A DNA stretch of 64,000 bases from Bdellovibrionota bacterium (GCA_963170155.1 CAUJGP010000015.1:1-64000); one strand, 5' to 3'; positions 13,322 to 17,222 are shown, counted from the stretch's first letter. The notes: generated from the letters alone by a model not told the origin. Numbers and translations: made by a program.

Positions 13322-14215
13322 ATGGAAACTCTAAGAATTGGTTCTCTTCAATATTTTATTCGCCCAGTTAAGGCTTTTGAAGACTTTGCGCTGCAAGTAG
13401 AAGCTCTGGTGGAAACAGCTCTGGATTACAAGGTAAAGATTCTGGTTTTTCCGGAGTATTTTTCAACTCAACTTTTAACGCTGGGTAATATTAAACGACC
13501 TATTGATGAACAAATTCGAGATCTAGCCAAACAGGAAGAGCGAATTGTAGAGTTTATTGCTCGCCTCTCTAAAAAACATAAAATGATCATTGTTGGCGGA
13601 ACTCTTCCTGGTTTTGATGAATCAAAAGAAAAAATCTTAAATAAATGTTATGTTTTTTCATCGAATGGAAGCTACAATGTCCAGGCAAAATTGCATATGA
13701 CTCGATTTGAAAAAGAGGAATGGATGATCAGCTCTGGCACACGCCTCAAACTGTTTGAAAGTGAGTTTGGTAAATTTGCGGTTGCCATTTGCTATGATGT
13801 GGAGTTTCCAGAGATCGCCAGAGTTGCTGGTCGTATGGGAGCGCACTTCCTTGTGGTTCCCAGCTGTACAGATGAGCGCAATGGTTATCTTCGCGTGCGC
13901 TATTGTGCACAATCCAGAGCCATTGAAAATCAAATGTATGTGATTCATTCTTCCACCGTAGGCTCACTCCCCACCGTTCCAGCGGTTTCCCTCAATTATG
14001 GGCAAGCGGCAATCTACACTCCTTGTGACTATGCCTTTGCGCGAGATGGTCTCTTAGCGGAAGGCACCGTCAATCAAGAAAGCATGGTGATTGGTGATAT
14101 TCATCTTTCCTTAATTGAACGATCTCGCAAAAATGGAACAGTTCTTCCTCTCCGTGATAGCCAAACAACAGCGGAACTTCTCCAGGTGGTCGATCATGTC
14201 ATCCTCCCTTCATAG
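13322..14215 (+). CDS. Carbon-nitrogen hydrolase (nitrilase superfamily amidase)
   Basis: 297 residues with the Glu-Lys-Cys triad of the nitrilase superfamily: Glu45 (LVFPEYFST), Lys123 (QAKLHMTRFEKEEW) and Cys157 (AICYDVEFPEIARVAG). These enzymes hydrolyse amide or nitrile C-N bonds. The sequence resembles the nitrilase half of the widespread GNAT-nitrilase fusion proteins (YhcX type), and here the GNAT half begins the very next gene, overlapping this stop by 20 bases. That adjacency suggests the amidase and acetyltransferase act on related substrates. The substrate is unknown. Confidence 0.87.
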   Translation: METLRIGSLQYFIRPVKAFEDFALQVEALVETALDYKVKILVFPEYFSTQLLTLGNIKRPIDEQIRDLAKQEERIVEFIARLSKKHKMIIVGGTLPGFDESKEKILNKCYVFSSNGSYNVQAKLHMTRFEKEEWMISSGTRLKLFESEFGKFAVAICYDVEFPEIARVAGRMGAHFLVVPSCTDERNGYLRVRYCAQSRAIENQMYVIHSSTVGSLPTVPAVSLNYGQAAIYTPCDYAFARDGLLAEGTVNQESMVIGDIHLSLIERSRKNGTVLPLRDSQTTAELLQVVDHVILPS

Positions 14216-17200
14216 TTCGCAGAAACAACTCTCTCATCGCTATGCTTTATCGAATCCTCTGCCAAAGCACTTCGTTCAAATTCAGCAATTATGCAGAAAA
14301 GTATATCCCTTTTCAAAGCCCTGGTCTTTATCTCAACTTGAATCCCATCGATCTTACTTTCCTGATGGCCAATTAATTGTAATCGACAAAGAAACCAATA
14401 CCGTTGTGGGCTTGGCCTTCAGTTTAATGATTACCTGGAATGATTATTCCCCCCTTGATAACTGGCAGGATTTCACCTCTGGTGGTTATTTTCATAATCA
14501 CAATCCCCGCCAGGGGAAAACCCTATATGGGGCTGAGATTATGGTTGATCCTGAGTATCGTGGGCAAGGAATCGGTAAGATGCTCTACCAAGGCCGTCAA
14601 AAAATCATGGAAAAATATCATCTCAAACGTATTCGAGCCGGAGCCCGATTGCGAGGATATTATAAATTCAAAGATCAGATGACTCCCAAAGAATACGTCA
14701 AGAAGGTCATCACCGGGGAGCTTTTTGACCCCACTCTCAGTTTTCAACTCAAAAACAAGTTCAAAGTGATTGACGTTGCGGCTAATTATTTGTTCAACGA
14801 TCCAGAGAGCTTGGGATACGCCGCTGTGATAGAATGGTTGAATCCCAAAGAAAACTCTCCCAAAGAAATTGAAAGACATCTTCAAAGCGTTCAACTTTTC
14901 TTAGACGAAGATCGTTTTACTCCTCAATTCCTACCTAAAGAGCTTCGTCGCTTAGTCAGAAAGGCCACATCTCTGTTAGGCCAAAGTATCCTGGAGCTTG
15001 AAGGAGAACCTCTTTTTAAAAAAATTGAATACTACCGAGAAAAATTGAAAAAACTAAGAAATAAACAGCACATCAAAGATCCTCTTAATTCTCTTCTTGC
15101 CAATCTGTCTAGAGAAAGCCGTCTTCACAGAGTGAAATTAACCCACGCCTTTTCACTACAATTAGAAATCGTCAATGTTTGCGAGGCTTCTTACAGAACC
15201 TGGAGACTCAGGCAGAAATCTCCCCCACAAGGTTTAAAAAACAAATTAAATTTAACTTATGTACTAACGGCTCATCCCACCGAGGCTCGCTCTAAGATGG
15301 CTATTGAAGTGCTTGACCAAATACAACGCCTTTTAATTGAGGGAATCCAAAATAATTTTATTTTTGATGAAGCCGCCTTGGCCACTCAAATGAGAAAACT
15401 ATGGATTCAGCCTCTCTCCAAAAATAAAAAGCCTAGTGTTATGGATGAAGCTGAATATATTTATTCTTTGGTTTTTGATCCGGATATTTTTAATTTTATC
15501 CTCCGAGATCAACCAGGATATCAGCTTATGCTGAGGACTTGGGTAGGAGGAGACAAAGATGGTCATTCGGGAGTCAACAAAGATGTCATGAAACAATGTC
15601 TGACCAAATCCCGCGAGCATATTCTTGCATTTATCAATACCAAATTAACTCACACCATCAATGATTTACTGACACTTTCTGAAGCGCACAAAAATTGGAA
15701 AAATGAAATAGAAACTCTGTCGATGATGCAAAAAGAACTCAACACACTCAAATTTCTTTTTGCAGGAGATGGCACCAAAATAAAAACTTGGACCTTGAAA
15801 TTCCACTCCTTCCTCAAAAAAGCCTCTGTTTTTACTCAAACTCACCATCAAATTTTCCTCATAAAAAAAGTGATTGAATTTTTTCCCGCATTTGTCCTGC
15901 CCATTGAAATGCGAGAGGATGCTTATCACATTAAAAACTCCCTCACAGATTTTCGAGAACCGATTCGAGGTATGCTTAATGAAATCGCAAAAATTGCAGG
16001 GGCCTTGGATCTTATTTCCTATGTGAGGGGGCTTGTTGTTTCAAGATGTGAATCTTCTGAGGATATCACCAATGCCTGTCAGCTTATTCATCTCACGTCT
16101 CGCTCGAAAACATTAAGAGCCATCCCTCTCTTTGAAAGCCAGGACGCCCTGAGTTCTAGTAAAAAAATTATCAAAAACTGGCTGAAAGACAGAAAAAACC
16201 AAGAGTGGGTGCAACGACATTGGGGTCATCGCTTTGAAATTATGCTCGGTTATTCTGACTCCGCCAAAGAAATTGGCGTTCTCCCCAGCCGTCTTTTAAT
16301 TTCACGATGCATGGATGATATCGATAAACTCATGAAATCCTTTAAAATCAAACCTCTCTTTTTTCATGGAGCCGGAGGAAGCGTCGCTCGAGGTGGGGGA
16401 AGCCTCAAAGAACAAATTTCCTGGTGGAGCCCGTCCGCTATTGCCCACCCCAAAATGACGATTCAAGGAGAAATGATCCAAAGGACTTTCGCAACTAAGG
16501 AAATATTGAATTCACACTGCGCTTATATGTCCATCGAAGCCCTCAGACGCAAGTCATCGCAGCTCAAACGTGAACGATCAGAAACCCTTGAAAAATTTAA
16601 TAGTATTATCGCCACTGAGTATTCTCTCCTCGTCAATAATCGCTCATTGCTCTCTCATCTCCTTGCTGCCACGCCTTATCGTTACCTTGACATCTTAAAA
16701 ATTGGTTCAAGACCTACCACTCGACAAGACAATTCTTATTTAACAACAGCCTCACTTAGAGCTATTCCCTGGGTCCTATGCTGGACACAAGTGAGATCTC
16801 TGTTACCTACCTGGTGGGGAGTGGGAAGCGCTTGGCAAAAATTGACGGCTAGAGAAAAAGCCTCTTTGATTTCGCTTTATCACACGGATCCATTCCTATC
16901 TTCATTTATTAAAATCTTGGGTTTTACTCTTGCCAAAGTTGAACTCGATGTTTGGGAACTTTATTTTTCTCAAGACAATAATGCTCCGCTTTTCAAACAA
17001 ATACGAAATGAATATAAAAATGCCGTCCAATGTGTTCTTGATATCAGTAAAGAAAAGCAACTTATTTGGTACCGCCCATGGTTAGAAGAAAGCATAAAAC
17101 TACGCTCCACTCACATTCATCTTCTGAATCTTATCCAAATTATTGCCATGAAAAATGGTGATGAGGATTTAATGAGAGATACAATTGTCGGTATCGCTTG

Positions 17201-17222
17201 TGGCATGCTGACGACAGGATAA
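14196..17222 (+). CDS. GNAT acetyltransferase fused to PEP carboxylase-like domain
   Basis: 1008 residues. Residues ~15-225 form a GNAT domain with the acetyl-CoA loop YRGQGIG (121-127) and a YhcX-like extension (LFDPTLSFQL...DPESLGYAAVIEW). Residues ~235-1008 align with phosphoenolpyruvate carboxylase: LTAHPTEARS (His360), RTWVGGDKDGHSG, EMRED (Arg573), PLFE (Glu647), GYSDSAKEIG (686-695), HGAGGSVARGGG (724-735), GSRP (Arg839), SLRAIPWVLCWTQ (Arg855), and a GMLTTG terminus. The position of E. coli Arg581 in HGRGG is Ala726, and the terminal GMRNTG is altered. PEPC makes oxaloacetate from PEP and bicarbonate; whether this copy does is open. ATG 14196 has AGGTGG 6 bases upstream; an earlier in-frame start is at 14115. 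Confidence 0.85.
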   Translation: MSSSLHSSQKQLSHRYALSNPLPKHFVQIQQLCRKVYPFSKPWSLSQLESHRSYFPDGQLIVIDKETNTVVGLAFSLMITWNDYSPLDNWQDFTSGGYFHNHNPRQGKTLYGAEIMVDPEYRGQGIGKMLYQGRQKIMEKYHLKRIRAGARLRGYYKFKDQMTPKEYVKKVITGELFDPTLSFQLKNKFKVIDVAANYLFNDPESLGYAAVIEWLNPKENSPKEIERHLQSVQLFLDEDRFTPQFLPKELRRLVRKATSLLGQSILELEGEPLFKKIEYYREKLKKLRNKQHIKDPLNSLLANLSRESRLHRVKLTHAFSLQLEIVNVCEASYRTWRLRQKSPPQGLKNKLNLTYVLTAHPTEARSKMAIEVLDQIQRLLIEGIQNNFIFDEAALATQMRKLWIQPLSKNKKPSVMDEAEYIYSLVFDPDIFNFILRDQPGYQLMLRTWVGGDKDGHSGVNKDVMKQCLTKSREHILAFINTKLTHTINDLLTLSEAHKNWKNEIETLSMMQKELNTLKFLFAGDGTKIKTWTLKFHSFLKKASVFTQTHHQIFLIKKVIEFFPAFVLPIEMREDAYHIKNSLTDFREPIRGMLNEIAKIAGALDLISYVRGLVVSRCESSEDITNACQLIHLTSRSKTLRAIPLFESQDALSSSKKIIKNWLKDRKNQEWVQRHWGHRFEIMLGYSDSAKEIGVLPSRLLISRCMDDIDKLMKSFKIKPLFFHGAGGSVARGGGSLKEQISWWSPSAIAHPKMTIQGEMIQRTFATKEILNSHCAYMSIEALRRKSSQLKRERSETLEKFNSIIATEYSLLVNNRSLLSHLLAATPYRYLDILKIGSRPTTRQDNSYLTTASLRAIPWVLCWTQVRSLLPTWWGVGSAWQKLTAREKASLISLYHTDPFLSSFIKILGFTLAKVELDVWELYFSQDNNAPLFKQIRNEYKNAVQCVLDISKEKQLIWYRPWLEESIKLRSTHIHLLNLIQIIAMKNGDEDLMRDTIVGIACGMLTTG

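Follow-up and report, generated by a model that had tools for sequence, protein, structure and literature searches.

Phosphoenolpyruvate carboxylase (PEPC) occupies a central branch point of carbon metabolism. Arg581 of the Escherichia coli enzyme is one of several arginines located at the phosphoenolpyruvate (PEP) site, and Asn881 is part of the aspartate inhibition site. In the plant enzyme it is the second loop arginine, equivalent to Arg587, that is positioned at PEP (PMC7999111). The omega-amidase Nit2 makes oxaloacetate from 2-oxosuccinamate (PMC5485471), and Bacillus yhcX, which gives its name to the YhcX-type GNAT-nitrilase proteins, has been linked only weakly to indole-acetic acid (PMC4558970). 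Here we analyse a stretch of 64,000 nucleotides from a Bdellovibrionota bacterium, a relative of the predatory Bdellovibrio (GCA_963170155.1, CAUJGP010000015.1:1-64000), called the window below, in which a GNAT domain and a PEPC are encoded as one protein directly downstream of a nitrilase gene. The fusion is the only PEPC of its genome and probably, if by no means assuredly, a working bicarbonate-dependent PEPC of a short class; it carries a GNATL domain that comes from a nitrilase-GNAT module, and its translation is probably coupled to that of the nitrilase upstream.

The PEPC domain and its missing arginine

The locus lies on the plus strand. A nitrilase-superfamily amidase of 297 amino acids (aa) (13322..14215; PF00795 CN_hydrolase, 5.8e-31) is followed by the fusion protein of 1008 aa (14196..17222), whose single chain carries both PEPcase (1.7e-96) and Acetyltransf_1 (4.2e-8) in Pfam; the PF00311 match scores 324.6 bits against a cut-off of 22.4. 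The original prediction, made from the sequence alone, had read the same two open reading frames with their overlap of 20 bases (14196..14215) and the motifs YRGQGIG, LTAHPTE, PLFE, GYSDSAK, RGGG, GSRP, SLRAIPW, HGAGG and GMLTTG. All of these were found, and the searches it proposed with PF00311, PF00583 and PF00795 matched all three domains. AGGTGG stands upstream of the fusion ATG. TTG at 14115 is an alternative start; the N-terminal "MS" common to the homologues favours 14196.

The PEPC domain (aa 242-1008; 14919..17219) has the PEPC fold and forms a clade with other PEPCs of the short class, in which the PEPC part is about 770 aa long. In the AlphaFold2 model of the fusion (predicted local distance difference test score, pLDDT, 87.2; predicted template modelling score, pTM, 0.77) it matches maize PEPC (6v3o) with Z 38.2 over 734 residues and E. 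coli PEPC (1jqn) with Z 34.3 over 731. The structural comparison that had been suggested thus confirmed the PEPC fold (Z 34-38, in each case across more than 700 residues). Sequence conservation was read from an alignment of 22 sequences, comprising 17 short PEPCs of the window's class, the E. coli enzyme and four canonical PEPCs. H138 (in LTAHPTE, codon 15273..15275), R396, E506, D543, K546, R587, R699, R703, R713, K773 and R832 are invariant in all 22. The catalytic and metal residues of the superfamily (H138, R396, E506, D543, K546, R587, R699, R713) are therefore all present, and the fusion retains R587, the second arginine of the loop.

What is different is the first of the two arginines in the GRGGxxGRGG loop, where canonical enzymes read HGRGG. 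The Ala of HGAGG (16371..16373) aligns with E. coli R581, and the L-T of the C-terminal GMLTTG (17202..17219) with R880-N881. R581 is replaced in 17/17 short PEPCs, fused or not, by Ser in 16 and by Ala in the window, and these enzymes have L or M at 880 and T at 881 (A or V in two); E. coli and the four canonical PEPCs retain Arg at 581 and R880-N881. With N881 gone, inhibition by aspartate may be weaker. Is the replacement at 581 a consequence of the fusion? This is ruled out by the same loss in stand-alone PEPCs without GNAT. Nor does R581 truly define the superfamily, several lineages of which lack it. Scanning 84,980 species with a DNA pattern for FHG[SA]GG..xRGGG gave 110 loci with Ser or Ala at R581, an undercount because TCN or GCN codons are needed; every locus proved to be a PEPC when checked. 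About 100 of them belong to the short class and occur in Bdellovibrionota, in many Legionella, in a few Planctomycetota, Elusimicrobiota and Acidobacteriota, and in others. The remainder are eight long enzymes of Flavobacteriia and two other long PEPCs, an Acidobacteriota/Planctomycetota pair. A quick PEPC tree sets the short class apart by a strongly supported branch and places the long enzymes without R581 elsewhere, so R581 appears to have been lost in at least three lineages.

Several observations on the distribution may be added. In Flavobacteriia (L135, L148, L151, L161, L188, L199), where R581 was lost separately, the long PEPCs read HGAGGTISRGGG and GLKNTG. The short R581-less PEPC is carried by Legionella loci L115, L116, L120, L126, L136, L141, L150, L185 and others, and three sampled Legionella species nest inside Bdellovibrionota-type sequences on the tree, which suggests an old horizontal transfer. 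Two short PEPCs (L019 and L020, in G013 and G035) have Gln in place of the loop histidine H579 (FQGSGG). Our literature searches found no description of a short R581-less PEPC class and nothing relevant on Arg581/Arg587.

What does such an enzyme do in the cell? The fusion is the sole PEPC of its 100%-complete genome, in which no pyruvate carboxylase domain was found. Among 369 genomes of the phylum, 142 bear a PEPC, 15 of them a canonical one, and a canonical and a short PEPC never occur together (0/15 canonical-PEPC genomes, with 5.2 expected). The fusion scores 326 bits with NF000584, the NCBIfam equivalog of canonical bacterial PEPC, under the cut-off of 815; stand-alone short PEPCs score 304-354 and the canonical PEPC of G266 scores 883. 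Because its genome holds neither a second PEPC nor a pyruvate carboxylase, because short and canonical enzymes exclude each other, and because catalytic residues and fold are intact, the PEPC of the fusion is most likely a working anaplerotic enzyme with refilling of the tricarboxylic acid (TCA) cycle as its job.

The nitrilase-GNAT pair and its joining to PEPC

The GNAT domain occupies aa 10-219 of the fusion (14223..14852), with the coenzyme A (CoA) loop YRGQGIG at aa 121-127. In a fold search with the AlphaFold2 model (pLDDT 87), its best solved matches were 7uci (Z 20.2), GphF (6mfc, Z 20.1) and CurA (2ree, Z 19.9), over 191-195 residues; generic acetyltransferases reached at most Z 17.3 over 147 residues. 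A profile search with matches at 1e-11, 5e-9 and 3e-7 (the next at 9e-4) likewise pointed to the GNATL domains of CurA, GphF and SxtA. The domain is thus GNATL-like by fold and by profile. A CurA-type decarboxylase, delivering CO2 and acetyl-CoA for PEPC, would be an attractive role; it was dropped because Ala150 and Gln184 stand at CurA Thr355 and His389, which we take to be the catalytic pair (profile alignment, with the CurA numbering inferred from a consistent offset). Is the domain then a relic? YhcX and stand-alone GNATs share 30 conserved columns, of which the fused GNATs keep 29, and median identity is 71% for GNAT and 76% for the nitrilase, compared with 53% for the PEPC domain. Since these columns are kept and GNAT is conserved above the PEPC domain, the fused GNAT is, judging from its sequence, under selection and not a relic.

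The nitrilase has the likely triad Glu45, Lys123 and Cys157, read from alignments, in agreement with the intact Glu/Lys/Cys reported before. Its nearest solved relatives are yeast YLR351C (1f89, 7e-25) and mouse Nit2 (2w1v, 3e-14).

The GNAT-PEPC fusion is present in 15/369 genomes of the phylum, including two partial copies (G059, G192), with full-length homologues of 50-58% identity in genomes from several families. Absence from close relatives, through an assembly join or a frameshift, had been named as what would overturn the fusion; such an artefact, or chance, is ruled out by full-length homologues in many independent genomes. The upstream gene could be read in 13 fusion loci besides the window, and in 12 of these it is an immediately adjacent nitrilase of 71-80% identity, in the same orientation. 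In the remaining one, that of G269, the nitrilase is 66% identical and located on another contig. The nitrilase and the fusion overlap by 20-29 bp in 8/12 of these junctions; three others (L005, L007, L069) have longer overlaps from upstream alternative starts, and L008 has a 31-bp gap. Whether GNAT-PEPC fusions with HGAGG recur beside nitrilases had been posed as a check: the fusion and its nitrilase do recur, but of all fusions read the window alone has HGAGG in exactly this form, and HGSGG stands in the rest. The closest stand-alone PEPCs (L096 in G194 and L097 in G007), 54% and 48% identical, branch just outside the fused clade.

Where did the fusion come from? In many relatives GNAT and nitrilase form one YhcX-type protein with GNAT first. 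The comparison with YhcX in the original prediction was apt insofar as both domains are homologous; here, however, the two are separate genes in permuted order. In eight genomes the order is likewise rearranged, with the nitrilase before GNAT, as separate genes in most; in G352 (L093:2621-4089) the two are apparently joined in one frame, the nitrilase frame being broken near an ambiguous base. On the GNAT tree the fused GNATs form one clade (support 98/91), the rearranged stand-alone GNATs another (95/88) and the YhcX GNATs a third (100/100). The nitrilase tree, on which the partner nitrilases of the fusions are one clade, agrees for the fused and YhcX groups. The fused PEPC domains form one group with weaker support (93). 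Because the GNATs fall into three supported groups and the nitrilase tree is in agreement, it would most simply follow that a single gene fusion linked a rearranged nitrilase-GNAT pair to PEPC.

The pair also meets PEPC without fusion. G266 and G267, of one genus, have canonical PEPC, nitrilase and GNAT in a row, and in G145 a short PEPC overlaps the YhcX-type GNAT-nitrilase gene that directly follows it. By gene order and sequence, then, the pair has on two independent occasions come to form an operon with PEPC, in one case a canonical one, and the adjacency of nitrilase, GNAT and PEPC occurs in three arrangements. Two independent unfused adjacencies compare with about 0.03 expected by chance, a rough estimate made after the fact. 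In tests that ignore shared ancestry, PEPC is present in 37/54 genomes of the phylum with a YhcX-type gene and in 90/300 without (P 1e-7), and within one family in 27/41 and 20/86 (P 5e-6).

Proposed function and its alternatives

In the mechanism that we favour, the PEPC domain would supply the cell's oxaloacetate. The GNATL domain would bind CoA and use an acyl-CoA, and the nitrilase, whose end overlaps the start of the fusion, is probably translationally coupled to it. By its distant homology to Nit2, the nitrilase would most likely act on the amide of a keto acid, for example oxaloacetate, and set the acid free. Because Nit2, one of the nitrilase's nearest solved relatives, yields oxaloacetate, the unit could contain two enzymes with this keto acid as their product. 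The three activities would then act on connected metabolites, with oxaloacetate chemistry as the best guess. The view of the three as one module is in this respect sustained by the conserved fusion and its nitrilase, the independent operons and the co-occurrence of YhcX-type genes with PEPC; the altered PEPC reaction that formed part of it is unsupported.

Some points weigh against this mechanism. In 227/369 genomes there is no PEPC match, and only 8/369 have a pyruvate carboxylase domain. Pyruvate carboxylase as a substitute in the PEPC-less relatives is therefore unsupported and, because most of these relatives lack both, other anaplerotic routes exist in the phylum. No measured activity was found for any short-class PEPC. 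The nitrilase is distant from Nit2 and falls under every NCBIfam equivalog cut-off. The fusion of G269 has no adjacent nitrilase, G194 and G007, with their close stand-alone PEPCs, have no GNAT or nitrilase of the fusion-locus kind, and shared ancestry may contribute to the co-occurrence counts.

Could the GNAT domain instead mainly regulate the attached PEPC, by sensing acetyl-CoA or acetylating a PEPC lysine, with the nitrilase as historical baggage? This is the main rival, unlikely and yet to be taken seriously. Bacterial PEPC is activated by acetyl-CoA, and the PEPC of Corynebacterium glutamicum becomes less active on lysine acetylation (PMC8100219); the intact CoA loop and the lone fusion of G269 would also fit. 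However, the same GNAT stands beside or fused to nitrilase without PEPC in many genomes, the 29 retained columns point to an unchanged enzymatic job, and almost every fusion locus has retained its adjacent nitrilase. A bolder form of the favoured mechanism is rather improbable: an undescribed oxaloacetate-producing assembly of Bdellovibrio-type bacteria, in which GNATL would process an acyl-CoA, its products (CO2/bicarbonate, acetyl-CoA) or an amide intermediate would pass directly between the three active sites, and PEPC would be freed from aspartate feedback.

That the fusion has no functional meaning, being a hybrid inherited after a one-time loss of the stop codon between neighbours, is less probable still. 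The single origin in the GNAT tree is what it would predict, and the YhcX-type pair and PEPC are indeed apart in most relatives, but conservation over deep divergence, with GNAT better conserved than PEPC, the independent operons with two PEPC classes and the YhcX/PEPC co-occurrence all speak for a function. Least probable is that the lost arginine alters the reaction, for example to bicarbonate-dependent PEP hydrolysis, for although R581 lies at the E. coli PEP site and both it and R880-N881 are replaced here, the replacement is class-wide and recurs independently in the long PEPCs of Flavobacteriia and of the Acidobacteriota/Planctomycetota pair, all other catalytic residues are retained, and short genes replace canonical PEPC one for one.

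Comparison with known systems

Literature searches found nothing relevant on a GNAT/nitrilase/PEPC fusion and no report of PEPC fused to an acyl-CoA-type domain; the GNAT-PEPC architecture is new, and it belongs to a short class of PEPC of which no description was found either. Its repeated joining to PEPC gives a concrete handle on the function of the nitrilase-GNAT pair, which is widespread and functionally unexplained. PEPCs that lack R581 by nature are a test of which arginines the active site truly needs, and the scarcity of PEPC and of pyruvate carboxylase noted above raises the question of the route to oxaloacetate in many members of the phylum.

With E. coli Ppc (EC 4.1.1.31, PF00311) the fusion shares the fold, the residues His138, Arg396, Glu506, Asp543, Lys546, Arg587, Arg699 and Arg713, and the C-terminal glycine. 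It differs in lacking Ppc segments 101-120, 226-237, 324-349, 413-448 and 850-862, in having Ala for R581 and L-T for R880-N881, and in its N-terminal GNAT domain. Archaeal-type PEPC (PF14010) shows a weak profile match around the glycine-rich loop, and 460 residues superpose with 3odm (Z 19.2); that family is much shorter (55-60 kDa), and the window protein groups with bacterial PEPC. Nit2 and YLR351C have the Glu-Lys-Cys triad in common with the nitrilase, though the relation is distant. The GNATL domains of the polyketide loading modules of CurA, GphF and SxtA are closest in fold and profile over the full domain, including a conserved His at H102, whereas the fusion has Ala150 and Gln184 for Thr355 and His389 and there is no polyketide synthase around it. 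Finally, both halves of YhcX-type GNAT-nitrilase, compared through genes of the same phylum, are homologous to the parts found here (about 30-40% identity for GNAT and 36-42% for nitrilase in relatives) with conserved residues kept; where YhcX is one polypeptide with GNAT first, the window has two genes, with the nitrilase first and the GNAT fused to PEPC.

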